Shown here: positions 11,685-31,504 of the stretch, in pieces | Position numbering within the stretch: position 1 is the stretch's first letter | How the letters are laid out: each line of letters begins with the position of its first letter | DNA from: Actinomycetes bacterium | GTDB lineage: Bacteria; Actinomycetota; Acidimicrobiia; Acidimicrobiales; Acidimicrobilacustridaceae | Direction: 5' to 3' | DNA: 64,000 nucleotides | Assembly: GCA_029782145.1 (NCBI GenBank) | Contig: JAKOVH010000013.1 | Coordinates: 1-64,000, forward strand | Program-made: the position numbers and the translations under genes | The notes under the pieces: generated by a model | Seen by the model: only the letters and a program-made list of their open reading frames with translations | Told to the model about the DNA's origin: nothing | Databases searched by the model: none

Positions 11685-12709
11685 CGGCTCAGCCGCCAGC
11701 GCCGGCGGGGCGCGTCCATGGCGGCGACCTTGGCCCGGCGGCGTTCCTCGCGTGCGGCCACGCGGCGCATGTAGGTCTGCAGCTTCTTCAGGTCGTCGGC
11801 GTCGTCGGCTTCCGACACCAGCTCGTACTCCTGGAACTCGGTGACCTCGTAGTCGAGGCCCCGCCAGTAGTACTGCAGCTCGGTCGAGGACCAACCGGCG
11901 TAGATCTCGTCCCACGTGAGGCGCTGGAAGTGCGGCTGGAGCACGATCGGGGTGAGCGGCTCGCCCTCGAGCTGGTAGCGGAAGTCGACCGACACACGCA
12001 TGTTGAGCTCGGTGCAGTTGTGCAGGGCAGCGTGCACGGTCATCGAGGGGAACAGCAGCACGTCGCCGGCGCGGTAGTCGGTGGTGACCCACCGCAGCTC
12101 CTCACGCATGTCGTCGGGGATGACGGCGCAGCGCATCCCGGCCGCCATGTGCCGGTCGAGCGGGAGCAGCCCGTGGCGGTGCGAGCCGCGCAGCACCGCC
12201 AGCCCGCCGAGGTCGGTGGGGATGTCGCCGACCGGAACCCACGCCGCCGTCAGCAGCGGTGTGCCCTGGTTGTTCGGGTAGTCCTGGTGGGGCGGCGTGG
12301 AGATCTCGTAGTGCCCGGGGAAGCCGAGGCGGGAGATCTTGAGCGGGTGCGGGAACGCCGAGGGCCCTCGGACCTGGCGCATGATGTCGAGCAGGTCCGG
12401 GTCGTGCGCCAGGGAGTGGAACGACTCCAGGCGCTGGACCGCGTCGTTGCCGACGAAGAACTCGGGCTCGCCCTCGCGTGCGGGCTTGGCCGTGACCACG
12501 GCGTCCATCAGGTCCGGGCCGCCACGGATCCACCCGACGGCAGCGAGGGCCTCGAGGATGTCCCGGCGCAGCCCGTCGACCTTCTCCGGGTCGAGCACGC
12601 CACGGAACAGCAGGTAGCTGTCGTCGTCGAGGCGCGCCCGGAGCGCATCGGGGTCGCCGAGCAGGTCGTTCGACGAGCGCATGGGCAGGAACGCCCAGTC
12701 GTTGTTCAT
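11681..12709 (-). CDS. PhyH family Fe(II)/2-oxoglutarate dioxygenase
   Basis: 342 residues. The iron ligands are visible as His141 and Asp143 in PPHQDYPNN and His226 in MTVHAALHN; Arg238 (NMRVSVDFRY) would bind 2-oxoglutarate. PhyH-type enzymes hydroxylate or further oxidise small molecules and are found in glycan and secondary-metabolite loci. It is followed by the coupled FkbM methyltransferase, so hydroxylation then O-methylation of the same residue is a reasonable reading (inference). The C-terminal tail is basic (REERRRAKVAAM). Cytoplasmic. Confidence 0.87.
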   Translation of the reverse strand: MNNDWAFLPMRSSNDLLGDPDALRARLDDDSYLLFRGVLDPEKVDGLRRDILEALAAVGWIRGGPDLMDAVVTAKPAREGEPEFFVGNDAVQRLESFHSLAHDPDLLDIMRQVRGPSAFPHPLKISRLGFPGHYEISTPPHQDYPNNQGTPLLTAAWVPVGDIPTDLGGLAVLRGSHRHGLLPLDRHMAAGMRCAVIPDDMREELRWVTTDYRAGDVLLFPSMTVHAALHNCTELNMRVSVDFRYQLEGEPLTPIVLQPHFQRLTWDEIYAGWSSTELQYYWRGLDYEVTEFQEYELVSEADDADDLKKLQTYMRRVAAREERRRAKVAAMDAPRRRWRLSR

Positions 12710-15997: not shown

Positions 15998-17005
15998 GTG
16001 TTTCGATCCAGCGTTCTGCGAACCGCCCGACGCATGGAGCGCTCGGGCCGCTACGACGAGGCCATCGCGCTGCTGTCGCGCTCGGCCCGATCGAAGCGCG
16101 ATCCGGAGGTGCTGGAGCTGCTGGCCACCTTGCGGCGCGAGGGCGCCGGCTCCCGTCCGCGTGGCCGCGGGCCGGCCGAGTGGCCACCCGCGGTCGACGA
16201 CTGCTTCCCGCCGGGCACCACGGTGCCGGAGGTGGCGGCCGGGCGGCTCGACGCCACCGTGCTGCGCTCGGCCATCGTGAACCACGGGTCGTTGCTCGTG
16301 CGGGGCCTGTTCGACCCCACCCGGGCCGCCGCCCTCGAGCGCATGAGCCGCACGGCCATCGCCGCCGCGCTGTCCGGCGAGCGCGACCGTGACGGCTGGT
16401 ACGCCCCGGTGCCGGCCGACCCCGACTCGGGTGTCTCGCAGCGGCGAGGCTGGGTCCGCCAGACCGGGTGCGTCTGGGTCGCCGACTCGCCGCGGGCCCT
16501 CGCCGAGGTGCTCGACGCCTTCGACGACGTGGGTCTGCCCGACACCCTCACCGGCTACTTCGGCGAGCGCCCGCTGTTCAGCCTCGAGAAGTCGGCGCTG
16601 CGGCGGGCCACGCCGGAGGCCACGCCGGAATGGCACCAGGACGGCGCCTTCATGGGCCCGGGGCTGCGGGCGCTGAACCTGTGGGTCGCCCTCACCGCGT
16701 GCGGCGGTGAGGCGCCGGTGCCGGGGCTCGACGTGGTGCCACGGGCCTTCCCCGAGTTCGTGGAGACGGGGACCCGCGGGGCCAAGCTCGACACGTTCGT
16801 CGGGCCGGAGCTGGTGGCCGAGCTGGCGGTCGACAGCCCCGTCGTGCGACCGGTCTTCGAGCCCGGCGACGCCATCTTCTTCGACGACCACACGCTCCAC
16901 GCCACCGGCACCAGCCCCGGAATGGCCGGCGACCGCATCGCCATCGAGTTCTGGTTCTTCGCCGGGGAGAACGTGCCGCAGCGCTACGTGCCGATGGTGT
17001 TCTGA
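15998..17005 (+). CDS. PhyH-like Fe(II)/2-oxoglutarate dioxygenase
   Basis: 335 residues. Iron ligands His213 and Asp215 sit in EWHQDGAFMG and His301 in HTLHATG; Arg313 (DRIAIEFWFF) fits the 2-oxoglutarate site. LNLWVALTACGGEAPVPGLD is the typical strand after HxD. The first 50 residues (MERSGRYDEAIALLSRSA) look like a single TPR-type helical hairpin added to the enzyme. The start is uncertain: GTG at 15995 or 15998 after a GGGGGG run, or ATG at 16034. It is followed after 53 nt by a GT2 gene on the same strand. Likely oxidises a sugar or lipid of the glycan. Confidence 0.82.
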   Translation: MFRSSVLRTARRMERSGRYDEAIALLSRSARSKRDPEVLELLATLRREGAGSRPRGRGPAEWPPAVDDCFPPGTTVPEVAAGRLDATVLRSAIVNHGSLLVRGLFDPTRAAALERMSRTAIAAALSGERDRDGWYAPVPADPDSGVSQRRGWVRQTGCVWVADSPRALAEVLDAFDDVGLPDTLTGYFGERPLFSLEKSALRRATPEATPEWHQDGAFMGPGLRALNLWVALTACGGEAPVPGLDVVPRAFPEFVETGTRGAKLDTFVGPELVAELAVDSPVVRPVFEPGDAIFFDDHTLHATGTSPGMAGDRIAIEFWFFAGENVPQRYVPMVF

Positions 17006-17058: not shown

Positions 17059-18057
17059 GTGAGCCCCGAGCTGAGCGTCGTGGTGGTGGCCTACGACATG
17101 GCCCGGGAGCTGCCGCGCACCATCCGCTCGCTGTGCCCGCCCCACCAGCTCGGCATCGACCCCTCGGCCTACGAGGTGATCGTGGTCGACAACGGCTCGC
17201 CGATCCCTGTCGATCGTTCGATCGTGCCCGACGACGCCGGCGTCGAGGTCCGCATCGAGCGGCTCGACCCGGCCCCGCCCTCCCCGGCGGCGGCGGCCAA
17301 CCGCGGGATCGAGGTGGCGCGGGGCGATGCCGTCGGGCTCATCGTCGACGGCGCCCGCATGGCCTCTCCCGGGCTGTTGGCCACCGCCTCGCTCGGGCTG
17401 CGGCTCGTCGAGCGGCCGGTGGTCGCCACCTTGGGCTGGCACCTCGGCGCCGGCCGGCACGGCGACGCCGACAACGCCGGCCACGACGCTGCCGCCGAGG
17501 ACGCGCTGCTCGAGCAGATCGGCTGGCCGTCCGACGGCTACCGCCTGTTCGAGATCAGCACGCTCGGCAACACGTCGGCCCGGGGCTGGTTCGGCCCGAT
17601 GGGGATGAGCAGCGCCCTGTTCATGCCCAGGTCGCTGTGGCGCGAGGTGGGAGGCCTCGATGCCGCCTTCGCGCTGCCGGGGGGCGGGCTGGTGAACCAC
17701 GACCTGTACCGCCGGGCGGTGAGCGCCGAGGGCGCCCGGGTGGTGATGGTGCTCGGTGAGGGCACCTTCCACCAGACCCACGGCGGCGCGACCACCTCGG
17801 GGCGCTTCGGCTGGGAGGAGATGCAGGCCGACTACGAGCGGCTGCGCGGCGAGCGGTTCTCGCCCGTCGAGGTCGACCCGCTCTACGTCGGCACCATGCC
17901 GGCCGAGGCCCGCCCGCACCTGATGGCGTCGCTGGAGTGGCTCCGGGCTCGCCACGGTGAGCAGCCCGGAGCTCAGCGCAGGCGCTTGAGGTACCCCTCG
18001 GCGTTGAAGGTCAAGAAGTACTTTTGGACCTCCAGGTCCGGCATGAAGTCGGGGTAG
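17059..18057 (+). CDS. GT2 family glycosyltransferase
   Basis: 332 residues from GTG 17059. LSVVVVAYDMARELPRTIRS and YEVIVVDNGS form the nucleotide-sugar site, and LIVDGARMASPG takes the DxD position as D-G-A. It is a close relative of the GT2 domain in the convergent 1134-residue protein: both share the block PGGG-x4-DL and LGEG-x-FHQ-x-H. The last 28 codons overlap that protein's gene in antisense (85 nt). The tail (QRRRLRYPSALKVKKYF) is basic and probably unconserved read-through beyond an ancestral stop. Cytoplasmic. Confidence 0.87.
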   Translation: MSPELSVVVVAYDMARELPRTIRSLCPPHQLGIDPSAYEVIVVDNGSPIPVDRSIVPDDAGVEVRIERLDPAPPSPAAAANRGIEVARGDAVGLIVDGARMASPGLLATASLGLRLVERPVVATLGWHLGAGRHGDADNAGHDAAAEDALLEQIGWPSDGYRLFEISTLGNTSARGWFGPMGMSSALFMPRSLWREVGGLDAAFALPGGGLVNHDLYRRAVSAEGARVVMVLGEGTFHQTHGGATTSGRFGWEEMQADYERLRGERFSPVEVDPLYVGTMPAEARPHLMASLEWLRARHGEQPGAQRRRLRYPSALKVKKYFWTSRSGMKSG

Positions 18058-21000
18058 AGGGCGCCGATCCGCTTGAGGGCCTGGTTGGGCCCTGGCCCGT
18101 AGCCGGGCCACACCGGCGCCCCGTTCACGATGGACCCCTCGACGATGGCGTAGCTGCCGACGCTCACCAGTGGGGCGAAGGCGTCGAACTGCACGAGCAC
18201 CTCGTCCTGGTGGCGGGGCCCGCCGAGCAGGAGCATGGCCCGGCCCGATCCGACCTTGGCCTTGACCTCGTCCTGGACGGCCGCCTCGCAGGGGTCGCCG
18301 ACCACGTACTCGACGCGGGGGTGCTCAGGGGTGGGCGCGCCCTCGCCCTCGACCACGGCGACCACACGGCCGTGGCCGAGCAGCTCGCAGATCGAGGCCA
18401 CGAACGCGGTGCGGCCTCCGTCGGGGTCACCGGTGACCACCACCCACTCGGGGCGCACCGTGGAGATCAGCTCCTGGTAGGCGAGCAGGTCGGTGGGCGC
18501 CACCTCGACGGTGCGGCCCAGCCAGCTCGTGCCCTTCCACGCCAGGCTCTGCCAGAACGCCTCGGTGAAGGCGACCGACAGCTCCTGGGGCATCGGGACG
18601 GGATCGGCCGGGATGCCGTCGGGGCCGCCCACTGCGGGGTGCTCCCAGAACACCCGGGCCGTCTGGCGCCGGGCCCGGGTGCGGCGGGAGCTGTCGGTGA
18701 TGCTGCCGACGAAGTGCAGGTCCTTGCCCGGTCCGTCGAAGGCGCGGCCGCGCAGCGCCTGGTAGTGCTCGCGGTAGGACTCCAGCAGGTCGTGGCGGTG
18801 CTGGACCTCGGTGAGGTTCGTGGTGGTGCCCGAGTGGAGCTGGTGGAACGAGCCCTCGCCGAGGATGGTGACGACGGTGACGTCGGGGCTGGCGCCGAGC
18901 TTCTCGAACAGGTCGAGGTTGGCGAAGCCGCCGCCGGGCATGTCGAACGACTCGTCGAACCCGCCGACCTGCTCGATCAGCTCACGGGGGGCGAACAGGC
19001 AGTTGCTCTCCCACATGCCGTCGAACCAGTCCCGCTCGCCGATGAAGTGGCCGATGTCGAAGAGCCGGTAGCCGTCGACCGGCCACTCGATCCGCTCGAA
19101 CAGCCGATCCTCCATGGTGCGGTCGTAGCCGCCGTTCATCAGCTCGCCCTGCTGGCCGGGCCCGACGTACCACTGCTGGGTGGCGACCACCGCCGGGCCG
19201 TAGATCGACAGGCCGTGCATGGCGTGGCGCAGCACGCCCGGGGTGAGCACGTGGGCGCCGTCGATCATGAGCGCCAGGTGCTCGCCGGTGGACTCCGCGA
19301 TGCCCCGGTTGAGGGCGTCGACCGGGGACGACGGGGCGTCGTCGCCCATGTCGACGTAGCGGAACTCCGGGCCGAAGCCCTCGACGTACGCGGCGTCGAG
19401 CTTCTGGTCGGGAGACGACCCGTTCTCGACGACGACGACCTCGTAGTCGAGGTCGTCGATGCCCGTCTGGTAGGAGCGCGACAGCGAGCGCAGGGTGCGG
19501 GCCGCCTCGCGCTTCATGTTGTAGAAGACCACGACCACCGACAGCTGGCGCCGGTCGACCGGCACCTCGCCCTGGCCGTCGACGGGCTCCTCGACGGCGA
19601 GCAGCGAGTCGGGGATGTCGAGGGTGAGGTCGTGCAGCGCCGGGTCGTCGGCGGCGGGCTCGGGCGGCGTGTAGGTGGACTGGAAGCGGCCGACCTTGCG
19701 CCAGCGCACACCCCGGTCGTCGGGCCGCCGCATCAGGTCGTCGATGCCACGGGCCGACCGGAACTCGTCGACCTGGGCCTGGCACTCCGGATCCGCGTAG
19801 TCGTCGACCACGATGAAGCCGCCGACGGGCACCTTGTCGTAGAGCGCCTCGAGGATCTCCTTGGCGTGCCGGCCCGACCCGGTGCCGATCCGCAGCAGGG
19901 CGACCTTGTCGATCTTGGCTCGGGGCAGGGTGCGCCCGAAGGGCCCCTGGAGGAACCGGACCCGCTTGTCGAGCAGGTCGAAGCGGGAGAACGCCTGGCG
20001 CACGTCGTTCAGGCTCGGGAGCCACGCCCGCAGCCCGGCCCATCCGGCCGGGACCGGAGCGAGCATGCGGCTGCGGCGCACCTTCTGGAACACGGTGCGG
20101 GGTCGTCGCAGCTCGGCCTTGGCCGGCAGCACCTTGGTGGTGCTGGCGGTGAAGGTGTCGGCGACCCACACCTTCGGCGCGGTGACGCCGTGGACGTCGA
20201 GGTAGCCACGCATGAACACCGCGGCGCCGCCCCGGCCGGTGCCGCAGTCGACGAGGTCGCCCTCGACGAGCTCGGTGCGGATGGTGTCGAGGTCCTCGTG
20301 CAGCGCGTCGAGCCGGACCCGCCCCATGTCGGTGTAGGGCAGGAAGCCGGTGCCGGTCGGGCCCCCGTCGCGCTCGCCGCCGGACTCCCGGGGCGCGCGG
20401 ATCATGGCGGTGCGGTCCTTGAGGGTCCGCACCGGGTCCCTCAGGTTGCCGGGGTTGACCGTCCGTCCGGTCTCGAGGCAGAGCAGCAGGTAGTCGAGCC
20501 GCAGCTCGTTCTCGAAGTAGTGGTCGTCGAGCAGGGCCCCCTTGAGCAGCTTCAGGTAGCGCTCGGCGGCCTCGCGGAGCTGCTCGTCGCGCTGGTAGAA
20601 GACGTTGTGCTGGAACAGCACGTTCTGGATGCGGGTGCGCTCGGCCAGCTCCAGCAGCTCGTCTCTGGTCTCGGGCCCCTCGAGCTCGTCGAGGACCCGG
20701 GCCAGCTCGGGCTGGCGCTCGAGGCGCTCCTCCTCCACCACGATGGCCAGGCCGAAGTAGATGGGGAGCACCACGACGCGCAGGGGCTTCTCGTAGCCGG
20801 CGACGAAGTCGTCGACGCCGGTCATGACGCCGTTGCGCGGGCCGCCCTCCTTGAGGGCGTTGGCCATCGTCGGGTTGATGCCGCCCTTGCCGGGCACCAG
20901 CTCCTCGCGGCCGGGCACGATGCCCCGCCGGGCCCACGGCTGGCGGTGCTTGGGCGGGATCTGCTCCGGCGCGTAGTAGAGGTCGCGCCGCCCGTAGGGG

Positions 21001-21377
21001 AAGCACACGTCGTGCAGGATCAGCACCGGCAGCGGGGCCTGGTGGGCCCGCGAGACGGCGGCGATCTGCTGGAGCTCGTTGTAGACCGTGTACCAGTTGT
21101 GGTCGCCGTCGAGCAGCACGGCGTCCATCGGCGGCAGGGTCGTCAGCACGTTGAGGCTGAGGTCCCGGTGGAAGTAGTACTGGCCCTTGAACCGCCGTTC
21201 GTGCTCGCTCGGGTCGAACTGCGGCACCGGGTCGATGACGTGCAGCTCCACGTCGGCACCCAGCCGGTCGAGCATCAGCTGGGTGTTGTGCCCGGCCAGG
21301 GCACCGATCTCGGTGATCAGCTTGGCCTTGGCCGCCTCCAGCACGGGCGCGACCGCGACTTCCCAGAATGGAAACAC
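17973..21377 (-). CDS. Giant methyltransferase-TylF-GT2-CmcI multidomain protein
   Basis: 1134 residues, four parts. (1) Residues 20-215: class I methyltransferase-like (TEIGALAGHNTQLMLDRLG, MDAVLLDGDHNWYTVYNEL), then a helical segment. (2) About 325-570: TylF/MycF O-methyltransferase-like (GDLVDCGTGRGGAAVFMRGY, FIVVDDYADPECQAQV). Where the family has a metal-binding Asp (LRxDxD) this protein has LLRIGTGSG at 495-503, so catalysis is doubtful. (3) About 610-905: GT2 (LSVVVVFYNMKREAARTLRS, VVVVENGSS, LMIDGAHV). (4) About 925-1134: CmcI/rhamnosyl-O-methyltransferase-like (LLAYQELISTVRPEWVVVTG). Start is GTG 21375-21377 after a GGGGGG run, with a TACTCT box at 21412-21417. Probably adds and methylates a sugar; domain limits are approximate. 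Confidence 0.82.
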   Translation of the reverse strand: MFPFWEVAVAPVLEAAKAKLITEIGALAGHNTQLMLDRLGADVELHVIDPVPQFDPSEHERRFKGQYYFHRDLSLNVLTTLPPMDAVLLDGDHNWYTVYNELQQIAAVSRAHQAPLPVLILHDVCFPYGRRDLYYAPEQIPPKHRQPWARRGIVPGREELVPGKGGINPTMANALKEGGPRNGVMTGVDDFVAGYEKPLRVVVLPIYFGLAIVVEEERLERQPELARVLDELEGPETRDELLELAERTRIQNVLFQHNVFYQRDEQLREAAERYLKLLKGALLDDHYFENELRLDYLLLCLETGRTVNPGNLRDPVRTLKDRTAMIRAPRESGGERDGGPTGTGFLPYTDMGRVRLDALHEDLDTIRTELVEGDLVDCGTGRGGAAVFMRGYLDVHGVTAPKVWVADTFTASTTKVLPAKAELRRPRTVFQKVRRSRMLAPVPAGWAGLRAWLPSLNDVRQAFSRFDLLDKRVRFLQGPFGRTLPRAKIDKVALLRIGTGSGRHAKEILEALYDKVPVGGFIVVDDYADPECQAQVDEFRSARGIDDLMRRPDDRGVRWRKVGRFQSTYTPPEPAADDPALHDLTLDIPDSLLAVEEPVDGQGEVPVDRRQLSVVVVFYNMKREAARTLRSLSRSYQTGIDDLDYEVVVVENGSSPDQKLDAAYVEGFGPEFRYVDMGDDAPSSPVDALNRGIAESTGEHLALMIDGAHVLTPGVLRHAMHGLSIYGPAVVATQQWYVGPGQQGELMNGGYDRTMEDRLFERIEWPVDGYRLFDIGHFIGERDWFDGMWESNCLFAPRELIEQVGGFDESFDMPGGGFANLDLFEKLGASPDVTVVTILGEGSFHQLHSGTTTNLTEVQHRHDLLESYREHYQALRGRAFDGPGKDLHFVGSITDSSRRTRARRQTARVFWEHPAVGGPDGIPADPVPMPQELSVAFTEAFWQSLAWKGTSWLGRTVEVAPTDLLAYQELISTVRPEWVVVTGDPDGGRTAFVASICELLGHGRVVAVVEGEGAPTPEHPRVEYVVGDPCEAAVQDEVKAKVGSGRAMLLLGGPRHQDEVLVQFDAFAPLVSVGSYAIVEGSIVNGAPVWPGYGPGPNQALKRIGALYPDFMPDLEVQKYFLTFNAEGYLKRLR

Positions 21378-21473: not shown

Positions 21474-22256
21474 TCAGGTGGCGGGTGCAGGCAGCTGCTT
21501 GTAGTTGAGCGACAGCAGCCGCCGCCGGTTCCCGCCGTTGAAGCTGGCGTGCACCGTGCGGTAGTCCCAGACCACGACGTCGCCCGGGACGCTCTCGATC
21601 GGGTACGACGGCAGCTCGTCCGGCGCCATCCCGAAGTGCTCACGGATGGCCGCGGGGTCGTCGACGGCACCGCGCACGGTGTGGGCGTAGGCGTCGCGCC
21701 AGTGGTTGGTGCCCGGCATCATGCGGATCGTGCCGTTGGTGTCGTCGAGCGCGTCGAGGTAGAGCGACAGCTTCACGTGGTGCTCGTGGAGCGGCGACGC
21801 GTAGGTGTCCGGGTGCCACGAGGTGTCGCACGAGAAGAGGTTGCCGTCGGCGGGCAGCTCGACGAAGTGCTCACCGACGAGCGAGTGGACCACGCCGAGG
21901 ACGCGCGGGTCGGACCCCAGCCCGGCGAGCAGCGGCGACTTGCCGAGGATGTCGTGGACGATCTGGCGCCGCTCGTTGAAGTGGAGGTCCTCGTGGCTCT
22001 CGAAGGGCTGGTTGCGCGCGAAGGCCTCCTCGAAGCCCTGTGCGATGCGGTCGATGTCGTCGGCGAACAAGCCCGGCAGCGTCACGAACCCGAAGGTCTC
22101 GAAGAAGCGGATCTGCTGGGGCGTGAGCGTGCCGCTGCGCTCCTCCGGCGGAGGCAGCGGCGGATCGTCGGCCAGCGGTGCCGGGACGGGTGTCGCCGTG
22201 GTCGCCCCCCGGGCCCTCAGAGCCCGGATCGCCCGGCGCGGTGCGAGCGTTGCCAT
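21474..22256 (-). CDS. PhyH family Fe(II)/2-oxoglutarate dioxygenase
   Basis: 260 residues from ATG 22256, with AAGGAGG about 8 nt upstream. His148 and Asp150 (SWHPDTY) and His236 (RTVHASFNGG) are the iron ligands; an Arg in NRRRLLSLNY binds 2-oxoglutarate. GTIRMMPGTNHWRDAY is typical PhyH sequence. The N-terminal 40 residues are Ala/Pro-rich and disordered. It diverges from the radical SAM pair across a 98-nt promoter region, so it may act on the same substrate (inference). A frame extending to 22331 runs into that promoter and is not used. Confidence 0.88.
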   Translation of the reverse strand: MATLAPRRAIRALRARGATTATPVPAPLADDPPLPPPEERSGTLTPQQIRFFETFGFVTLPGLFADDIDRIAQGFEEAFARNQPFESHEDLHFNERRQIVHDILGKSPLLAGLGSDPRVLGVVHSLVGEHFVELPADGNLFSCDTSWHPDTYASPLHEHHVKLSLYLDALDDTNGTIRMMPGTNHWRDAYAHTVRGAVDDPAAIREHFGMAPDELPSYPIESVPGDVVVWDYRTVHASFNGGNRRRLLSLNYKQLPAPAT

Positions 22257-22295
22257 GCTTGTGCCTCCTTCAGGAAGCGAGAGAACCCCACCGGT

Positions 22296-22332
22296 CCTAG
22301 ACTCTAGGGCGCGGTGGTGCGCTCCCACCACC
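22296..22332. promoter_or_regulatory. Palindromes in the PhyH/radical SAM divergent promoter
   Basis: CCTAGA-C-TCTAGG (22296-22308) is a perfect 13-bp palindrome. Just beyond it GGTGGTG (22313-22319) and CACCACC (22326-22332) form a second inverted repeat with a 6-nt centre. They sit between the dioxygenase start at 22256 and the radical SAM start at 22355, so one regulator could control both directions. Confidence 0.35.
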
Positions 22333-22354
22333 GATCGGGGCTGGGGGGTTCCAC

Positions 22355-23407
22355 ATGTCGGTGAACGTCGATATCGAGGTCACCAACCGCTGCAACGCTG
22401 ACTGCTACTTCTGTCCGCGCGACCAGACGCCGCACGAGGGCCTGATGACCCAGGCGGTGTTCGACCAGACGCTCGCTCGGGCGTGCGAGTACCGAGACGA
22501 GCTCCGACGACGAGATCCCCACGGGGCCGACGTCAAGATCAGCCTCACCGGGCTCGGCGAGCCGCTGGTCAACCCCCGGCTCGCCGAGTGGGTCAGGGCG
22601 GTCAAGGACGCCGGGTTCACCTGCGTGGTGTCGTCGAACGGCGCCCTCCTCGACGAACGGCGCGGCGGGGCGCTGCTCGACGCCGGGCTCGACGAGATCT
22701 GGCTGAACGTCGGAGCGGTGGGGGAGGCCTACGAGGACATCTACAAGCTGCCGTGGCAGCGCACCCACGACAACGTCGTGCGCTTCTCGCAGGCGGCCGC
22801 GAGCACGTCGTGCGCGCTCAGCATCGTGCTCGTCAACTACCGACAGGACCCCGTCTACACGCGCACGCTCAAGGAGTTCTGGGCGGAGCGGGGCATCGAG
22901 GCCTTCGTCGAGTACGAGATCATGAACCGGGGCGGGTCGCTGTTCGTCGACCACATGCAGTTCGAGGCGCTGCCCCAGCACGCCGAGGCGCGCCGGCTCA
23001 TCAGCGAGCGCGGCCGGGCGTGGTGCGTCGTGCCGTTCATCTACGTGTTCGTCGGTTACGACGGCAACTACTACCTGTGCTGCTCGGACTGGCGGAAGGA
23101 AGCGTCGTTCGGCTCGGTGTTCGAGCGGGCCATCCTCGACGTCACGCGAGGCAAGCTGGAGCACGTGGCGTCGCGCGGCGTGGTGTGCCGCACGTGCAAC
23201 CTCGACCCGCTCAACACCCTCACCGACGAGATGCGCGCCGCCGACGCGCTGGGCAGCGTGGGTGCCGACCACGCCGCCCACGCCGATGAGATGGTGGCGT
23301 TCACCCGGTCGCTGGAGAAGGGCCTGGAGGAGCTGGTCCCGGGCGTCACGGTGGACCTCCCGGAGGAGCCCCGCCGGCGCCCCTCCCTTCCCCTGATCAA
23401 CGAGTGA
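22355..23407 (+). CDS. Radical SAM enzyme with SPASM-like domain, copy 1
   Basis: 350 residues. The radical SAM cluster motif is Cys13-x3-Cys17-x2-Cys20 (NRCNADCYFCPRDQ) near the N terminus, followed by the SAM-binding GLGEPLVNP. Additional cysteines (AWCVVPF, YLCCSDW, VCRTCNLDP) near residues 225-290 form a SPASM or twitch-type auxiliary Fe-S site. Such enzymes use a 5'-deoxyadenosyl radical on peptides, sugars or other small molecules; no precursor peptide gene is visible nearby. The surrounding glycosylation genes make a sugar-nucleotide or glycan substrate more likely (inference). It is followed after 14 nt by a close paralogue. Confidence 0.9.
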   Translation: MSVNVDIEVTNRCNADCYFCPRDQTPHEGLMTQAVFDQTLARACEYRDELRRRDPHGADVKISLTGLGEPLVNPRLAEWVRAVKDAGFTCVVSSNGALLDERRGGALLDAGLDEIWLNVGAVGEAYEDIYKLPWQRTHDNVVRFSQAAASTSCALSIVLVNYRQDPVYTRTLKEFWAERGIEAFVEYEIMNRGGSLFVDHMQFEALPQHAEARRLISERGRAWCVVPFIYVFVGYDGNYYLCCSDWRKEASFGSVFERAILDVTRGKLEHVASRGVVCRTCNLDPLNTLTDEMRAADALGSVGADHAAHADEMVAFTRSLEKGLEELVPGVTVDLPEEPRRRPSLPLINE

Positions 23408-23421
23408 CGTAGGGAGCAGCC

Positions 23422-24474
23422 GTGTTCGTCGTCGACTTCGAAGCCACCAACCGCTGCAACGCCGACTGCCACTTCTGCCCCAGGGACCAGACCCCGCACG
23501 AGGGCCTGATGACCCAGGAGATCTTCGAGCAGGCGCTGCTCAGAACGATCGAGCTGCGCGACCAGATGGCCCGCACCGGCCTGGAGGACCCGTCGGTCGA
23601 CGTGAGCATCTGCGGGCTGGGCGAGCCGTTGATCAACCCTCGCACCCCCTCGTGGATCGCCGCGGTGAAGGACGCAGGCTTCACGTGCAGCATGTCGTCG
23701 AACGGCGCCATCCTCGACGAGCGGCGGGGGCAGGCGGTGCTCGACGCCGGCCTCGACGTGGCGATGCTCAACGTCGGCGCCGTGGGCGACGAGTACGAGC
23801 AGGTGTACAAGCTGCCGTGGCAGCGCACCCACGACAACGTGGTGCGGTTCGTCGAGATGGCCGAGGGCCGTTGCGACGTCGGGCTCGTGCTCGTCGACTT
23901 CCGGCAGGACCCGGCGAAGGCGGCCGAGCTCGAGCGGTACTGGCGCGACCGCGGCATCTCGATCTTCTTCAAGTACGACATCATGAACCGGGGCGGGTCG
24001 CTCTTCGTCGACCACATGCAGTTCGAGGCCCTGCCCGAGCTGCAGGCGGCACGCGAGCTGCTCGGCCGCAACGGCGGGCGGGCCCTGTGCGCCGCGCCGT
24101 TCGTGTACGTGTTCCTCGGCTACGACGGCAAGTACTACCTGTGCTGCTCGGACTGGAAGAAGGAGGTGTCGTTCGGCTCGGTCTTCGACCGGTCGATCCT
24201 CGACGTCACCCGGGGCAAGCTCGAGCACGTGCTGTCGCGAGGCACGGTGTGCCGCACCTGCAACATCGACCCCCTGAACCAGCTCACCGACGAGATGCAG
24301 GCCGCCCGGCTCAACGGCGACACCGGCTTCGACGCCGCCGCGGCCGCCCGCCAGAAGGTCGACACCAGCACGTGGTTCGAGGGGGTCCTCGAGGACATGG
24401 TCCCCGGCGTCACCAAGGGCCTGCCCGGGTCGGGCCGCCGCCGGCGGAGGCTCCTGCCCGTCATCGGCGAGTGA
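23422..24474 (+). CDS. Radical SAM enzyme with SPASM-like domain, copy 2
   Basis: 350 residues from GTG 23422, with AGGGAG about 7 nt upstream. Cys12, Cys16 and Cys19 (NRCNADCHFCPRDQ) bind the SAM cluster. The auxiliary cysteines (ALCAAPF, YLCCSDW, VCRTCNIDP) match copy 1 exactly in order. Long identical blocks such as RTHDNVVRF and MNRGGSLFVDHMQFEAL show a tandem duplication. They differ around residues 55-65 and 140-150 and at the C terminus, so the copies may act on different positions or as a heterodimer. Its stop is 6 nt from the convergent sulfotransferase stop. Confidence 0.9.
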   Translation: MFVVDFEATNRCNADCHFCPRDQTPHEGLMTQEIFEQALLRTIELRDQMARTGLEDPSVDVSICGLGEPLINPRTPSWIAAVKDAGFTCSMSSNGAILDERRGQAVLDAGLDVAMLNVGAVGDEYEQVYKLPWQRTHDNVVRFVEMAEGRCDVGLVLVDFRQDPAKAAELERYWRDRGISIFFKYDIMNRGGSLFVDHMQFEALPELQAARELLGRNGGRALCAAPFVYVFLGYDGKYYLCCSDWKKEVSFGSVFDRSILDVTRGKLEHVLSRGTVCRTCNIDPLNQLTDEMQAARLNGDTGFDAAAAARQKVDTSTWFEGVLEDMVPGVTKGLPGSGRRRRRLLPVIGE

Positions 24475-24480
24475 GCCGCC

Positions 24481-25224
24481 TCAGCGGCGGGCTGCTCGCT
24501 GCGCGATGAGCCCCCGTGTGAAGTCGTAGAGCTCGACGTCGAGCGCGTTGTCGTGCTCGATGCGCCGTCGGAACGCGGGGTCGACGTCGACCGGTCGGGT
24601 GCGGTTCATGTGCCGCCGGTCGCCGAGGCGCCACCGGAAGCGCCGCTCGAGCTCGCGGCAGAACCGGTCGTAGTCCTCCTGCACACCGACGACGTCGACC
24701 GTCTCGAGCGCCGCCTTGGCCGCCTCGAGGCGCTCGGGCCCGAACTCGACCGGGGTCAGCGCCCCGGCGGACATCTCGCCGGGGGTGAGCGAGAACATCT
24801 TCACCATGTGGTTGTGCACGAGGCCCTCGAAGCGGAAGGGGTCGTCGTAGATCTCCTCGAGGGACTGCTCGCGTGCCTCCGGTGTCAGCTCCCGGTGGTG
24901 CCGGAGGTACGAGAGCGTGCGAGCCACCGGCTCCCGCAACAAGGTGAAGGTGCGGAAGTCGCCGCCGAGCACCTGGGCCGTGCAGAGCGGGAAGTGGCCG
25001 GTGACCACCCTGATCTCGTGCTGGCGGGCCTGCCAGCGCTGCTGGAGGTGCTCGACCGACAGCACGGACCTGCCGTCGATCTCCAGCGTGGGGTCGAGGT
25101 CGGAGTCGTCGGGGTAGACGGCCCGTTCGCCGAAGCGCTCGCGCAGCTGCGTGGTGAGCGACGTGCCCGCCGCCTTCTGCACGTGGACGAAGAAGAACCG
25201 GCCTGTGTCGCGGCGGCGCAGCAT
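24481..25224 (-). CDS. Sulfotransferase family protein
   Basis: 247 residues from ATG 25224. The N terminus FFFVHVQKAAGTSLTTQLRE is the 5'-phosphosulfate loop and TLLREPVARTLSYLRHH the 3'-phosphate-binding strand-helix of PAPS-dependent sulfotransferases of the Sulfotransfer_2-like group. This group modifies carbohydrates, so sulfation of the surface glycan is the likely role. It starts 14 nt after a small lipoprotein gene on the same strand. The much longer frame to 25584 is an overlap shadow of that gene. Confidence 0.85.
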   Translation of the reverse strand: MLRRRDTGRFFFVHVQKAAGTSLTTQLRERFGERAVYPDDSDLDPTLEIDGRSVLSVEHLQQRWQARQHEIRVVTGHFPLCTAQVLGGDFRTFTLLREPVARTLSYLRHHRELTPEAREQSLEEIYDDPFRFEGLVHNHMVKMFSLTPGEMSAGALTPVEFGPERLEAAKAALETVDVVGVQEDYDRFCRELERRFRWRLGDRRHMNRTRPVDVDPAFRRRIEHDNALDVELYDFTRGLIAQRAARR

Positions 25225-25684: not shown

Positions 25685-27640
25685 ATGGCGGCTCCGGGGG
25701 GAGGCATGCGGATCGGGGTGCTCGAGCCGCACCTGCGCCGCTACGGCGGCATCCGGCACATGCTGGAGCTCTCCAACCACCTCGTCGACCGGGGCCACCA
25801 GGTGACGGTCTACGTGCCGCGCAGCGAGTCGCGGACCTGCTCGTGGATGCCGTGCCGAGCCGCGGTGCGGCTCGTCGACGAGGGACGCGACGACGACCTC
25901 GATGTGCTCGTGTTCAACGACGAGCCGCAGTGGTTCCTGCTGGAGCGCTTCCCGCGCGCCCGGCGGCGGGTGTTCTACGCCCTCCACCACGGCGCCCAGT
26001 ACCGCAAGCGGTGCAGCTGGGAAGCCGTCCGTACCGACGTCGACCTGCAGCTCGCCAACAGCGGGTGGACCGCCGACATGATCGAGGCCGAGACCGGCCA
26101 CCGCCCCGTGGTGGTGCTGCCGGGGATCGACCAGGAGCTGTTCCGCCCCCACGGGGCGCCGGTCAGGTACCCGATCCTCTGCACCGGCGACGCCGAGCGC
26201 GAGTGGAAGGGCACCGAGACGGTCCTCGAGGCGGCCCGGCTGCTCGGCCTCGAGGCCGAGGGCTACGCCCACAAGGACCTCTCGCAACCGGCCCTGGCCC
26301 TGGAGTACTGCGCGGCGGAGACGTTCGCGGTGGGCAGCTGGTACGAGGGCTTCGGCCTGCCGGGCCTGGAGGCGCTGGCCTGCGGTGTGCCGCTGGTGAC
26401 CACCGACAACGGAGGGTGCCGGGAGTACGCGGTCGACGGAGAGACGGCCCTCGTCGTGCCGCCCCGGGACGCCGTGGCGATGGCCGACGCCCTTGGCCGG
26501 CTGCGCCAGGACCGTCGCCTGGCCGGCCGTCTCTCGGCCAACGGGCTGGAGCTGGTGCGCTCCGAGTTCGGCTGGGACCGGCGCACGGACCGCTTCGAGG
26601 AGGTGCTCGCCGGGCTGGTCGAGGGCCCCGGTGCGGCCCCGCCGCCCGGTCGGCCGGCCGTCCCGGTCCGTCCGACGGTCTCGGTGGTGGTGCTGGCCTG
26701 GAACAACCTGCCCTACACGCAGGCCTGCGTGGAGAGCATCCGCCGCCACACCGACCTCGAGTACGAGCTGATCATCGTCGACAACGGCTCCGACCCGGAG
26801 GCGGCGAGCTACGCCCGCCACGCGGCCGACGTCGCCGTGGCCAACCCGACCAACCTGGGCTTCGCCACCGGCATGAACCAGGGCCTGGCGGCGGCGTCGG
26901 GGGAGTACGTCGCCTTCTGCAACAACGACACCGAGCTGCCGCCTCACTGGGCGTCGCAGCTGGTGGAGACCGCACGCAAGCACACCGACGCCGGCATCGT
27001 GGTCCCGGCCCTCACCGCGTCGGGCAACCCCGACACGGTGCGCGCCGCCCCGGGCTCGGCAGTGGTCGCCCTGCGCCCGTTCTCGTCGCCCCCGGCGGCG
27101 GTGCTGTACCTGATGCCCACCGAGGTGGCCAGGGGGGTGCACGGCTGGAGCGAGGACTACGCCATCGCCAGCGGTGAGGACACCGACCTCGCCTTCAAGG
27201 TCTGGGTGAACGACCTCGACATCGTGTTCGACGAGCGGGTGCTGGTGGAGCACAAGGACAAGGCGACGGCCCGGCTGCTCGGTGACTGGCGATCGCTGTG
27301 GGACCGCAACCGAGCTCAGTTCGTGCGCACGTGGCAACGGCCCGACCTCGACGTGCCCAGGCTCGACCGGTGCGAACCGGCACGCCACGAGCGCAACCGG
27401 GCCATCGCCGCGGCCACGGCCGAGTGGATGGAACGGTGCTTCGCCGCCCAGGCCCGTTCGAACCGCGGTCGGCGCGCCGTCCGCCGCCTCCAGACCCGCC
27501 TGGAGGGGTTCCTGCGGCGCGGGTGGGGTCGGGTCGAGGGCGGTGCGCCGGCGCCGGTCGCCCGCGCCGCGGGGTGGTCGAGGCGTCACCTGCGCAGCTG
27601 GGCCCGCCCGGGCCGCGAGCAGGGCACCGGCCACCGCTGA
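25685..27640 (+). CDS. Fused GT4-GT2 glycosyltransferase
   Basis: 651 residues. Residues 8-315 form a GT4-like GT-B enzyme (MRIGVLEPHLRRYGGIRHML; WYEGFGLPGLEALACGVPLV; TDNGGCREYAVDGETA). Residues about 330-570 form a GT2 domain (VSVVVLAWNNLPYTQACVES, YELIIVDNGSDPEA, NLGFATGMNQGLAAASGEYV, AFCNNDTELP with the acidic metal-site region, and a GEDTDLAFKVW block). One polypeptide could thus add two successive sugars. The C terminus is Arg-rich. The start at ATG 25685 rests on the leaderless promoter box; ATG 25706 is the alternative. It diverges from the lipoprotein gene. Confidence 0.9.
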   Translation: MAAPGGGMRIGVLEPHLRRYGGIRHMLELSNHLVDRGHQVTVYVPRSESRTCSWMPCRAAVRLVDEGRDDDLDVLVFNDEPQWFLLERFPRARRRVFYALHHGAQYRKRCSWEAVRTDVDLQLANSGWTADMIEAETGHRPVVVLPGIDQELFRPHGAPVRYPILCTGDAEREWKGTETVLEAARLLGLEAEGYAHKDLSQPALALEYCAAETFAVGSWYEGFGLPGLEALACGVPLVTTDNGGCREYAVDGETALVVPPRDAVAMADALGRLRQDRRLAGRLSANGLELVRSEFGWDRRTDRFEEVLAGLVEGPGAAPPPGRPAVPVRPTVSVVVLAWNNLPYTQACVESIRRHTDLEYELIIVDNGSDPEAASYARHAADVAVANPTNLGFATGMNQGLAAASGEYVAFCNNDTELPPHWASQLVETARKHTDAGIVVPALTASGNPDTVRAAPGSAVVALRPFSSPPAAVLYLMPTEVARGVHGWSEDYAIASGEDTDLAFKVWVNDLDIVFDERVLVEHKDKATARLLGDWRSLWDRNRAQFVRTWQRPDLDVPRLDRCEPARHERNRAIAAATAEWMERCFAAQARSNRGRRAVRRLQTRLEGFLRRGWGRVEGGAPAPVARAAGWSRRHLRSWARPGREQGTGHR

Positions 27641-27652
27641 GCCTCGGACCCG

Positions 27653-28480
27653 TCAGCGGTTGCGGTCCCGGAGCTGGCGGCGCCGGCGCAGCTCGCCCCG
27701 GGCGTGGCGCACCGGGATGCGGATGCACGCACCGAGGCCGTACCAGACCCGGACCAGCGGCGGCTCGTGGCGCACGTGGGCCACCTGCAGGCGGTACAGG
27801 TCCTGGAGCTTGCGTCGCGGCCCCCGCTCGGCGGCGAAGGACTGGCGGCGGTGCGCCCGCAGCAGCACCAGAGGCACCGCCATCCGGGCCAGGGAGGCGT
27901 CGATGCGCCGAGCCCGCAGGTAGAGGTCGTAGTCGAAGTACCGCTGGCGGGTGGCGTCGTAGCCCTCGAGGCGATCGAACAGGGAGCGCCTCGCCATCAC
28001 GGAGGTGTGGACCAACACGTTGCGGGTCAGCAGCTCCCGGTCGACGCGCACGACGGTGGCAGGCGGGTCCGGCACCTCCCAGTCGGCGTGGTCGTGGCCG
28101 TTGAAGCTGTAGACGCAGTCGGTGGCCAGCAGGTCGACGGTGGGATGGTCCCGGAAGGCTCGCAGCTGGCGTTCGAAGCGCAGCGGGTGCGACTCGTCGT
28201 CGGAGTCCTGGATGGCGATCAGGTCCGCTCGCGCCGCCGCCAGGCCGATGTTGAGCGCCGCGCCCCGGCCGACCTTCCCGGGATGCAGGACGCGGACCCG
28301 AGGATCGGTGGCTGCCTCGGCCAGCACGTCGGCGAGCTCGCCACCGATGGTGCCGTCGACGACCACGACGACCTCGAAGTCGGGCATCGACTGGCGCAGC
28401 AGGCTCGACAGCGACGACCGCACGAGCACCGGATAGGCCGCGTGGGTGGTCATCAGCGCCGTCACCGCTGGTGCAGCCAC
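27653..28480 (-). CDS. GT2 family glycosyltransferase
   Basis: 275 residues from GTG 28480. VTALMTTHAAYPVLVRSSLS, FEVVVVVDGTIGG and DLIAIQDSDDESHPLRF show the nucleotide-binding strands and the DSDD metal-binding motif of inverting GT2 enzymes, and FDYDLYLRARR the late acceptor-side motif. The tail is very basic. It ends 12 nt from the convergent fused GT stop and lies 35 nt downstream of the BY-kinase gene on the same strand, so they are probably cotranscribed. Confidence 0.88.
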   Translation of the reverse strand: MAAPAVTALMTTHAAYPVLVRSSLSSLLRQSMPDFEVVVVVDGTIGGELADVLAEAATDPRVRVLHPGKVGRGAALNIGLAAARADLIAIQDSDDESHPLRFERQLRAFRDHPTVDLLATDCVYSFNGHDHADWEVPDPPATVVRVDRELLTRNVLVHTSVMARRSLFDRLEGYDATRQRYFDYDLYLRARRIDASLARMAVPLVLLRAHRRQSFAAERGPRRKLQDLYRLQVAHVRHEPPLVRVWYGLGACIRIPVRHARGELRRRRQLRDRNR

Positions 28481-28515: not shown

Positions 28516-30159
28516 TCAGCCCACCAGGTCCTCGGTGCTCGAGCGGGGTGCCGGCGCCTGGGCCGCCGCGGGTGGTGCGCCGCCGTAGCCGCCGTAGCCG
28601 ATGCCGTAGTACTGGCCGAGCGCGGACTCGGTCACCCCGTCGAGGGCGATGCCGATGATCGGGGTGTCGACGTTGCGCAGGCGGCTCACCGTCTGGGTGA
28701 GGTGGGACTTCTTGGTCACCTCGGGCACCACCACGAGCAGGGCGCCGTCGCAGTGCTGGGCGAGCACGAGGGTGTCGCTGACCGGCAGGACGGGGGCGCT
28801 GTCGAGCAGGATGACATCGGCCCCTGCGCCCTCGAGGCGGGTGAGGACGTCGGCCATCGAGGGGCTGGCGAGCAACGCCGGCGGGTTCCCCGGCACCGGC
28901 CCGGCGGGCAGGATGGCCACTACCGTGCCCGGGGCGACCTCGACCTGCCGCATGGTCTCGGGCAGGGTGGAGCGGCCGAGCAGCACGCTCGTGAGCCCGT
29001 CGCCGGTGTCGTCGACGCCGTAGATCGCGCCCAGTGCCGGGCGGCGCAGGTCGGCTGAGACGACCGCCACGCGTGAGCCGGCCAGCGCCAGGGTGCGGGC
29101 CAGGTTGGCGACCAGCGTGGTCTTGCCCTCGCCGGGCACGGCGCTGGTGACGAGGATGCGCGTGCTCTTGCGTCCCATGGTGGAGAAGCGGACGTTGGCC
29201 GCCAGCGAGCGGTACGCCTCCTCGGCCGGGGAGCCCACGTCGACGAGGCGCCGGTCGATGTCGGGGAGGTGGCGCCTGCGCACCTTCTTGGCCCCCCAGA
29301 GCGGGATCGAACCGAGGATGGCCAGCCCGCCGGCGAGCCGCGAGATCTCGTCGGCGGTGTTGACCCGGTTGTTGAGCCAGTCGTAGAGCACCACCGCCGC
29401 GGTGGCGAGGAAGAGCCCGACGAGGGCCGCCACGACGGCGTTGCGCAACGGCTTGGGCTCGAAGGGGCTCGACGGCGTGGCCGCGGGAGCGACGATGCTG
29501 ATGGCCCCCGACTTCAGGTCGGCCTCGGTGTCGAGCTGGGTCGCCCGGGTGCGCAGGTCGGCCTGCTGGGAGATGAGCCGGGTCCGCTGCAGGCGGAGCG
29601 TCTCGAGGTCGTTGTCGCCCTGGGCGAGGGCCAGGCTGAAGTCGAGCGCCTGCACCTGCTTGGTGAGGTCGTCGGCCACGTTGCGCAGGTCGCTGGCCTG
29701 GTTGCGCCGGGTCTGGACGTTGAGGTCCTCCTGCTTGGTGACGTACACGGTGGCCACCGCGTTGGCGGCGTCACGGGCGACGTCGGGGTCCTCGGCGGTG
29801 GCCGTGATGGTGACGATGTCGGAGTTGATGTCGGTGCCGGCCGTGACGCTGCGCACCTTCGAGGCGGAGTCACCCAGCGTCTGCAGCGCCGGCTCCTGCA
29901 CCGCTCGCGACTCGATGAGGAAGCCGGCGTTGCCGACGTCGCGGTTCGGGTTCAGGTCGCCTGTGTTGCTGAACAGGCCGCCGGTCTGGTCGACGGCGTT
30001 GACCTCCGTCGTGGCCTTGTAGAGCTTGGGTTGCAGCGACGAGTAGACGAAGGCCCCGATGCCCGCGGCCAGGCCCACGGCGACGATGACCCACAGGCGC
30101 CGCTTGACCAGGAACAGGAATCGGGAGAGCTCGAGGTCGTCGGTGTGGTGCGTTTCCAT
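28516..30159 (-). CDS. Wzz-domain polysaccharide tyrosine autokinase (BY-kinase)
   Basis: 547 residues from ATG 30159 (AGGAAG about 8 nt upstream). A Wzz chain-length domain has membrane segments at 22-41 and 240-260 around an extracytoplasmic coiled region. The cytoplasmic BY-kinase follows: Walker A SAVPGEGKTT (339-348), Walker A' VVSADLRRP (366-374), Walker B VILLDSAP (449-456). It ends with a Tyr/Gly cluster (LGQYYGIGYGGYGG, tyrosines 517, 518, 522, 525), the autophosphorylation sites. The protein controls polymer length and export in Wzx/Wzy systems. The frame reaches back to 30306, but those codons belong to the 109-nt gap after the upstream GT4 gene. Confidence 0.93.
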   Translation of the reverse strand: METHHTDDLELSRFLFLVKRRLWVIVAVGLAAGIGAFVYSSLQPKLYKATTEVNAVDQTGGLFSNTGDLNPNRDVGNAGFLIESRAVQEPALQTLGDSASKVRSVTAGTDINSDIVTITATAEDPDVARDAANAVATVYVTKQEDLNVQTRRNQASDLRNVADDLTKQVQALDFSLALAQGDNDLETLRLQRTRLISQQADLRTRATQLDTEADLKSGAISIVAPAATPSSPFEPKPLRNAVVAALVGLFLATAAVVLYDWLNNRVNTADEISRLAGGLAILGSIPLWGAKKVRRRHLPDIDRRLVDVGSPAEEAYRSLAANVRFSTMGRKSTRILVTSAVPGEGKTTLVANLARTLALAGSRVAVVSADLRRPALGAIYGVDDTGDGLTSVLLGRSTLPETMRQVEVAPGTVVAILPAGPVPGNPPALLASPSMADVLTRLEGAGADVILLDSAPVLPVSDTLVLAQHCDGALLVVVPEVTKKSHLTQTVSRLRNVDTPIIGIALDGVTESALGQYYGIGYGGYGGAPPAAAQAPAPRSSTEDLVG

Positions 30160-30268
30160 GGCTTCGCTTCCTGCCCCCGGTCTGCGCTGTCGGTCCGAGA
30201 AGCCGTTCCGGTCACGGAGCGGCGGGCCAGCTGCCTGCATGTCGTCTCGTGGTCGCGGATGTGCAACC

Positions 30269-31504
30269 TTACTGTTCGACGCCTTGTGGCGAGTGGCGAA
30301 CGTCACGTGGTCCTGCCCGTTGCGTGGCCGGCCCCCCGTCGCGCCGCCGTTGCTCGATCAGATCGCGGTACTGCTCGACGAGCCACCGTGCCGCGACGTC
30401 GGCCCGGTACCGGGCGTCGAAGCGCTGCCGGGGACCGGCCGGGTCGGGTATCGGGCCGCGGGCGACGCGGCCGATGGCGTCGGCCAGGCTGTCGACGGTG
30501 GGCTCGCAGAGCCAGCCCACCGACGGGTCGACGAGCTCCGTCAGCGCGCCGTGGCCCGTGCCGAGCACGGGGCGTCCCCGGCTGAAGGCCTCGACCAGCA
30601 CCATCGGCATCGCCTCGTAGGCGACCGACGGGACGACGACGACCCGGGCGGCGTCCATGAGCCGGTGGACCTCGTCGGGCGCCACCGGTCCCAGGTAGGT
30701 CACGTCCGGCCGTCGACGGGCGGCGTCCTCGACGGAGGGCCGCTCCGGGCCGTCGCCGGCGATCGTCAAGGTCCAGCCCGCCGGCGCGGCGCGCTCCCAC
30801 GCCGCCAACAGCAACGGCACGCCCTTGATGTCCTCGAGACGTCCGGCGTAGAGCAGGCCCCGGCCCGGGGGCTGCACCGGACCAGGGTCGGGGATGCTGT
30901 TGGGCTGCACGACGACCCGTTCGGGATCGACCCCGACCGGGCCGGACAGGAACTCGGCGATCGGTCGGCTGACGGCCACGAAGCGGTCGATCGACCTCCA
31001 CGTGGCGCGGTGACGGGCGAGCGTGGCGGCCATGGTGACGCTCTGGAGGCGCGAGCCGCGGTAGCAGCCGTGGCGGATCGCCGGGATGGCGATGCGCCGG
31101 CCGGCGCACTCGTGGCACGGCGCGCCCTCGCGGGTGAACAGCCCGTTGGCGCAGACGTGGCGGTAGTTGTGCACGGTCTGCACCACGGGGACCCCCCGCT
31201 CACGGGCGGGCACGATGAAGCCCGGCGAGATGAGCGGGTAGAGGTTGTGGAAGTGGATGACGTCGGGCTGCCACCCGTCGACGATCCCGGTGATGCGGTG
31301 GGTGTCGGCGCGCGAGTGGAGAGGGCGGATGGCCAGCCCGGCTCTCTCCGTCCGGCCGAAGCCGTCGATCTCGTCGCTCTCGCGCAGGTAGCCGCGCACG
31401 TCGACGCCGGCCTCGCCCAGGGCGGCGATGTCGCGGTCGACGGCGCGGTTCTCGCCCGATGGCATGGCGCCCCGGTAGCGGTTGTGCACCACGAGGACAC
31501 GCAT
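30269..31504 (-). CDS. GT4 family glycosyltransferase
   Basis: 411 residues. The N terminus MRVLVVHNRYRGAMPSGENR is characteristic of GT4 capsule and EPS transferases, followed by DVIHFHNLYPLISPG and TVHNYRHVCANG. The donor half has GLLYAGRLEDIKGVPLLLAA, TIAGDGPE, and VVPSVAYEAMPMVLVEAFSR, with the E-x7-E motif. The segment GAPCHECAGRR and GCYRGSR has the cysteines common in this subgroup. Its ATG overlaps the flippase-polymerase stop (ATGA). A frame running to 32377 is a shadow. Confidence 0.9.
   Translation of the reverse strand: MRVLVVHNRYRGAMPSGENRAVDRDIAALGEAGVDVRGYLRESDEIDGFGRTERAGLAIRPLHSRADTHRITGIVDGWQPDVIHFHNLYPLISPGFIVPARERGVPVVQTVHNYRHVCANGLFTREGAPCHECAGRRIAIPAIRHGCYRGSRLQSVTMAATLARHRATWRSIDRFVAVSRPIAEFLSGPVGVDPERVVVQPNSIPDPGPVQPPGRGLLYAGRLEDIKGVPLLLAAWERAAPAGWTLTIAGDGPERPSVEDAARRRPDVTYLGPVAPDEVHRLMDAARVVVVPSVAYEAMPMVLVEAFSRGRPVLGTGHGALTELVDPSVGWLCEPTVDSLADAIGRVARGPIPDPAGPRQRFDARYRADVAARWLVEQYRDLIEQRRRDGGPATQRAGPRDVRHSPQGVEQ

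Follow-up and report, generated by a model that had tools for sequence, protein, structure and literature searches.

Two adjacent radical SAM genes in an actinomycete contig raise the question of whether their products act on a peptide, on a small molecule or on a sugar of the glycan whose genes surround them. The evidence was drawn from the window (the whole stretch of 64,000 nucleotides that was analysed) and from related loci, numbered L012 and so on, whose genes were called with a simple in-house caller in genomes that were mostly metagenome-assembled.

The tandem genes and their locus

The two genes, rSAM-A and rSAM-B, are encoded on the same strand with a gap of 14 bp between them. rSAM-B has a GTG start and an AGGGAG-like ribosome site just 5' of it. 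Both proteins match Pfam Radical_SAM (44 bits for rSAM-A and 49 bits for rSAM-B; cut-off 29.5) and Pfam SPASM (28 and 29 bits; cut-off 21.5). The features of the region are listed by coordinates in the window and strand.

10929..11684, minus strand: FkbM-family methyltransferase, homologous to the FkbM genes of the Halieaceae module described below
11681..12709, minus strand: third PhyH-type dioxygenase; closest solved relatives PtlH, SnoK and SnoN
16034..17005, plus strand: second PhyH-type dioxygenase (PhyH-b family), also in Acidimicrobiia islands
17059..18057, plus strand: glycosyltransferase family 2 (domain match)
17973..21377, minus strand: giant 1134-aa protein with Methyltransf_24, TylF, GT2 and CmcI-like methyltransferase domains (domain matches)
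21474..22256, minus strand: PhyH-1, Fe(II)/2-oxoglutarate dioxygenase (PhyH PF05721, 60 bits; cut-off 22)
22257..22354, no strand: divergent intergenic region of 98 bp between PhyH-1 and rSAM-A, probable shared promoter region
22355..23407, plus strand: rSAM-A, Twitch-domain radical SAM enzyme, 350 aa (open reading frame, domain matches)
23422..24474, plus strand: rSAM-B, tandem paralogue of rSAM-A, 350 aa (open reading frame, domain matches)
24481..25224, minus strand: sulfotransferase (Sulfotransfer_2), convergent, 6 bp after rSAM-B
25706..27640, plus strand: GT4-GT2 fusion glycosyltransferase (domain match)
27653..28480, minus strand: glycosyltransferase family 2 (domain match)
28516..30306, minus strand: Wzz/Wzc-type chain-length regulator and tyrosine autokinase (TIGR01007 over cut-off)

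rSAM-A and rSAM-B are 64% identical over 329 aa. A third copy, 65% identical to rSAM-A, is encoded elsewhere in the source genome. In a tree of 50 family members all three formed one clade with 99% support, and the tandem is therefore a lineage-specific duplication; the gene pair of Halieaceae is a separate duplication in the same tree. An earlier note on this DNA had described two tandem genes that were duplicated and have diverged, and both reading frames and their identity agree with that description. The third paralogue (G000:C22:455301-456305; locus L046:10251-11378) lies outside any glycan locus, as do several other family members. It is flanked by a TPR/cyclase-domain gene and by a RES/Xre-like gene pair, the latter recognised by reading the sequence.

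The pair was also said to sit among glycosyltransferases, which the surrounding genes bear out. In addition to the glycosyltransferases and the Wzc-like kinase listed above, the locus encodes a Wzy protein, a WcaJ-type sugar transferase, WecG/TagA, an acyltransferase and Wzm/Wzt-like genes, and on this gene content it was classed as a surface-polysaccharide locus. With its three oxygenase families, four methyltransferase domains, sulfotransferases and two radical SAM enzymes, the locus would be expected to make an exceptionally modified glycan.

Three further observations concern the window. A second sulfotransferase of a different Pfam family (37262-38101, minus strand) belongs to the locus as well, which makes sulfation of the glycan probable. 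A 949-aa protein (31504-34353, minus strand) has a C-terminal Wzy_C domain and an N-terminal part that resembles a Wzx-type flippase, and may possibly be a flippase-polymerase fusion. PtlH, a relative of the third PhyH-type dioxygenase, is 1-deoxypentalenic acid hydroxylase.

Architecture of the radical SAM proteins

rSAM-A carries the cluster motif C13-x3-C17-x2-C20, and the CxxxCxxC motif was present in 47 of the 47 family members whose N-terminus was covered. Its auxiliary cysteines are 224, 242, 278 and 281, with an extra C243; the four ligands were invariant in 50/50 members. The other three SPASM cysteines are absent, and C243 is the sole conserved cysteine of the auxiliary domain besides the ligands. 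A SPASM domain is defined by seven cysteines and two auxiliary clusters, in the arrangement CX9-15GX4C-gap-CX2CX5CX3C-gap-C (PMC6231123), and a Twitch domain is a truncated SPASM domain with one auxiliary cluster (PMC9012708). Since four, not seven, auxiliary cysteines are conserved, the C-terminal domain is a Twitch domain and not a full SPASM domain. The label 'SPASM-like' given earlier needs one correction: with four auxiliary cysteines and one predicted cluster the strict term is Twitch. By sequence, rSAM-A and rSAM-B belong to the radical SAM superfamily and carry a Twitch domain with its predicted cluster.

C243 directly follows the ligand C242 and was kept in 47/50 family members. The exceptions were the third copy of the source genome (Ala) and two long-branch members, L080 (Asn) and L084 (Ser), none of them beside PhyH-1. 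Both long-branch genes (L080:6622-7914 and L084:6737-8035) adjoin another radical SAM-like gene in which a Cys cluster motif is visible, and not a PhyH gene.

The AlphaFold model of rSAM-A had a mean pLDDT of 90. Its N-terminus is bare, with the first cluster cysteine at residue 13 and no RRE-like domain. The family also has a conserved short RRLIPV-like tail at the C-terminus, placed after a variable linker (for example window 23375-23404) and modelled with pLDDT under 50; it may serve in docking or as a lid on the active site.

The top Foldseek entries were BlsE (E 9.5e-10), BtrN and DesII. BlsE acts on a sugar nucleoside, BtrN on a cyclitol and DesII on a nucleotide sugar. VIA-align gave Z scores of 19.7 for BlsE (255 residues), 19.0 for ChlB, 18.8 for anSME, 18.2 for BtrN (216 residues) and 18.1 for SkfB, and ChlB, anSME, viperin and CteB all lay within about 1 Z of BlsE. 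With peptide enzymes nearly tied with BlsE, the substrate is not decided by fold alone. A Twitch-only profile searched against the PDB returned nothing beyond chance matches. The best NCBIfam match was TIGR04317 at 63 and 47 bits (cut-off 380), and no named NCBIfam family was assigned.

Of the characterised enzymes, BtrN (2-deoxy-scyllo-inosamine dehydrogenase, a Twitch radical SAM enzyme) has the same four auxiliary cysteines in the spacing C-x17-C ... C-x2-C, and the family profile aligns with it over both domains, radical SAM and Twitch, so that the four cysteines of each coincide. Identity is about 20%, however, and BtrN has Phe where the family has C243. All ligands of the BtrN auxiliary cluster are cysteines (PMC9012708). 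BlsE (cytosylglucuronate decarboxylase) is the best structural match but is only 22% identical, and the NCBIfam BlsE model scored 25.8 bits against a cut-off of 400. HygY, NeoN and AviX12, radical SAM sugar epimerases of aminoglycosides and orthosomycins, were set beside the family by their descriptions only; NeoN among them has a catalytic Cys249. These epimerases belong to antibiotic clusters, whereas the context here is a surface-polysaccharide locus or the Halieaceae module. In the avilamycin cluster, for instance, the radical AdoMet epimerase AviX12 is accompanied by the Fe/2OG oxygenases AviO1-3, by six genes for methyltransferases, and by glycosyltransferases and ABC exporters (PMC8234114). 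anSME and the SPASM RiPP maturases share the overall fold of radical SAM and auxiliary domains, but they have seven cysteines and two auxiliary clusters, or an RRE, whereas rSAM-A and rSAM-B have four cysteines and no RRE.

The partner dioxygenase and the gene company of the family

PhyH-1 has an invariant iron triad (H148-x-D150, H236) and an invariant 2OG-binding R246. It was said earlier to share a promoter region with the radical SAM genes. The divergent arrangement, 98 bp apart, fits this part of the claim, but no consensus promoter was found in the gap, and the scan for promoters and terminators was empty.

The PhyH-1 subfamily is a dedicated partner of the radical SAM family, and the linkage is near-obligate. 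Searched across whole genomes, the PhyH-1 profile gave 30 matches in 24 genomes, and 29 of the 30 lay 0-5.5 kb from a family radical SAM gene, so the co-occurrence that the earlier note proposed to examine was found; related genomes are among those counted, and the profiles, which derive from the linked genes, are thereby sharpened for the rSAM-linked subfamily. Among 140 Halieaceae genomes, 15 had both genes, 4 the radical SAM gene only, 2 the PhyH gene only and 119 neither (Fisher P 9e-15, kinship ignored). In the sample from the window's class (395 genomes), each gene was found once, in the same genome. Protein distances of the two families covaried over 17 loci (r 0.84, P 0.0001), and more weakly within the seven Acidimicrobiia (r 0.42, P 0.047).

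By profile, the best solved relatives of PhyH-1 were SnoK (E 1e-12), EctD, EvdO2, EvdO1 and EvdMO1 (25% identity). Its model (pLDDT 86) was nearest to SnoN (Z 22.5) and SnoK, followed by H11, EvdO1, HygX, EvdMO1 and GriE in a tie. Several of these belong to the Fe/2OG enzymes that act on sugars (SnoN/SnoK, EvdO1, EvdO2, EvdMO1, HygX and AviO1); identity to PhyH-1 is only 17-25%, however, and the non-sugar enzymes proline hydroxylase H11 and GriE are structurally almost as close. PhyH-1 is thus kin to the AviO/EvdO/HygX family by profile and fold, but no closer to it than to SnoN, SnoK or proline hydroxylase.

The radical SAM family is undescribed, rare and of patchy occurrence in Acidimicrobiia, Halieaceae and Binatia. 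When 84,980 species genomes were scanned with short exact peptide patterns, which gives an incomplete picture, 25 close relatives (43-53% identity) came up in these three groups, with Halioglobus and Haliea representing Halieaceae. By profile search, 19/140 Halieaceae genomes had the family, as did 1/395 genomes sampled from the window's class, this one being the window's own. Tandem or near-tandem pairs were also present in L017, L018 and L026. Viral contigs and plasmids held distant relatives only (21-28% identity). In one Acidimicrobiia and one Binatia locus (L026:3504-6083 and L031:1488-6867), large radical SAM proteins of 859-884 aa were seen near the Twitch enzyme; one of them gave a weak B12-binding match.

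Recurrent neighbours of the family were sulfotransferases, FkbM/TylF/CmcI methyltransferases and hexapeptide-repeat transferases, with glycosyltransferases in some loci. Homologues of the sulfotransferase at 24481-25224 occurred in 16 of the 41 compared loci (window counted). The Acidimicrobiia islands have in common the giant protein, PhyH-b, the third PhyH, a hexapeptide-repeat protein and sulfotransferases. Co-occurrence with the giant protein, likewise proposed for examination, was seen in four further Acidimicrobiia loci, in one of which the contig ends within the gene and only a fragment is present. In four genomes with the distant Halieaceae subfamily, the GT2 domain of the giant is a free gene 2.4 kb from the radical SAM gene; fused in one case and separate in the other, it suggests one pathway.

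The main Halieaceae module comprises PhyH, one or two FkbM genes, often a sulfatase, a radical SAM gene, a SnoaL_4-like gene and often a second radical SAM gene, together with a sulfotransferase and often an aldolase/short-chain dehydrogenase. Within about 10 kb of it, neither a glycosyltransferase nor a sugar-nucleotide gene was found. The SnoaL_4-like protein of 150 aa (L012:9434-9886 and homologues) lies directly 3' of the first radical SAM gene in 12/12 main-module loci, and between both radical SAM genes wherever such a locus has the pair. In the distant Halieaceae subfamily, a small Sel1-repeat-like protein overlaps or adjoins PhyH-1 beside the radical SAM gene (L086:9278-9541, L089:7685-7942 and homologues).

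Probable substrate and proposed chemistry

The near-constant company of PhyH-1 and of enzymes that add sulphate and methyl groups argues for what is probably an unusual change to a sugar of a cell-surface glycan, not to a peptide. We hold with moderate confidence that rSAM-A and rSAM-B, with PhyH-1, modify a sugar residue of the exopolysaccharide made by this locus, or of its lipid- or nucleotide-linked precursor. The radical chemistry on a sugar or glycan suggested in the earlier note is in this way supported; we infer the sugar substrate, the radical reaction and the order of steps from gene company and fold.

An unlikely, though the strongest, rival is that the radical SAM and PhyH enzymes tailor a small molecule or lipid as part of secondary metabolism, with the polysaccharide genes of the window as chance neighbours. 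Antibiotic pathways commonly include SnoaL-like proteins and PhyH enzymes, both genes are found in the Halieaceae module, and that module is the one lacking glycosyltransferase and sugar-nucleotide genes over about 10 kb. Against this, at least seven Acidimicrobiia loci (window counted) have polysaccharide genes or the giant methyltransferase/glycosyltransferase protein beside the radical SAM gene, and in a different phylum a free-standing gene for the giant's GT2 domain again lies next to the radical SAM gene.

Modification of a peptide or protein, by a RiPP maturase whose peptide substrate has its gene at another site or in overlap with a different gene, is improbable. The Pfam SPASM match, the action of Twitch enzymes such as SkfB on peptides and Z scores almost tied with ChlB, CteB and SuiB would fit such a maturase. 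However, rSAM-A and rSAM-B have no RRE domain and begin their first cluster at residue 13, and the gaps around the pair (98, 14 and 6 bp) leave no room for a peptide gene. Among 284 small open reading frames within 3 kb of radical SAM homologues, none recurred beyond near-identical genomes, apart from Sel1-repeat-like proteins, read from sequence, that are limited to the distant Halieaceae subfamily. No NCBIfam peptide-maturase model exceeded its cut-off. The earlier note had reported no precursor peptide nearby and had named placement in a peptide-modifying subfamily as a refutation; neither a conserved short peptide gene nor such a placement was found, the best NCBIfam score being 63 bits against 380. 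Two individual candidates for a substrate were set aside: a 104-aa lipoprotein-like gene (25239-25553, minus strand), with no Pfam match and no homologue in the other loci, and the 150-aa protein between the Halieaceae radical SAM pair, which is SnoaL_4-like instead.

Maturation of a metallocofactor was considered because the top NCBIfam match, TIGR04317, models a tungsten-oxidoreductase maturase; it is very unlikely, as the match lies far under the cut-off and is limited to the shared radical SAM core (residues 6-147), and none of the annotated neighbours was recognised as a tungsten oxidoreductase gene. Sulfatase maturation, the anSME-like conversion of Cys to formylglycine, is the least likely of all and was rejected: although in many Halieaceae loci the radical SAM gene has a sulfatase neighbour with a CTPSR or CRPSR motif, no sulfatase adjoins it in the window or the Acidimicrobiia loci, one Binatia locus has a partial sulfatase match 6 kb away, an FGE-type match was present in 10/10 genomes tested (source genome included), and the seven-Cys, two-cluster auxiliary domain of anSME is absent.

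If a glycan sugar is the substrate, the CxxxCxxC cluster would cleave SAM, and the 5'-deoxyadenosyl radical would abstract hydrogen from one of the carbons of the sugar. C243, beside the auxiliary cluster, could then donate a hydrogen to the carbon radical to give the epimer, as in NeoN and HygY; alternatively, an electron could pass to the fully ligated auxiliary cluster to give a ketone, as in BtrN. PhyH-1 would hydroxylate, epimerise or cyclise the same residue before or after this step, and the methyltransferases and sulfotransferases would finish it.

Retention of C243 in most of the family, the Phe of BtrN at this position and the precedent of epimerases with a Cys donor favour an epimerase for members of the module, with a dehydrogenase next. 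Epimerisation is therefore a tentative first choice, and a BtrN-like dehydrogenase a somewhat less likely second. That C243 is the hydrogen donor is a guess from its position and conservation; precedents for such a donor are NeoN Cys249 and EpeE Cys223. For such enzymes, as the literature cautions, function is not predicted by sequence networks (PMC6231123).

A bolder and doubtful reading is orthosomycin-like chemistry on a surface polysaccharide. PhyH enzymes would form orthoester or methylenedioxy-type bridges between or within sugars, and the paired radical SAM enzymes would epimerise ring carbons of the assembled methylated, sulfated glycan. If true, this would be a new class of surface-glycan modification, shared horizontally among Acidimicrobiia, Halieaceae and Binatia.

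In antibiotic pathways, radical SAM enzymes are known to work on sugars together with Fe/2OG enzymes, and the proposed action of rSAM-A, rSAM-B and PhyH-1 would resemble that of such sugar-tailoring pairs. To our knowledge there is no example of such a pairing on bacterial glycans, and BtrN is not known to have a PhyH partner in the butirosin pathway. In the open-access papers searched, no radical SAM enzyme acting on a bacterial polysaccharide and no report of such a gene set was found. A mobile radical SAM-PhyH pair in a surface-polysaccharide locus would, if confirmed, extend this chemistry to bacterial glycans, and its role there would imply sugars beyond the reach of nucleotide-sugar epimerases.

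The third paralogue has lost T10 as well as C243, each replaced by Ala, which suggests a changed chemistry for this copy. HygY is reported to show dehydrogenase activity on mutation of a single Cys. The C243-less third copy and the two paralogues that bear C243 offer a ready comparison for this epimerase/dehydrogenase switch.
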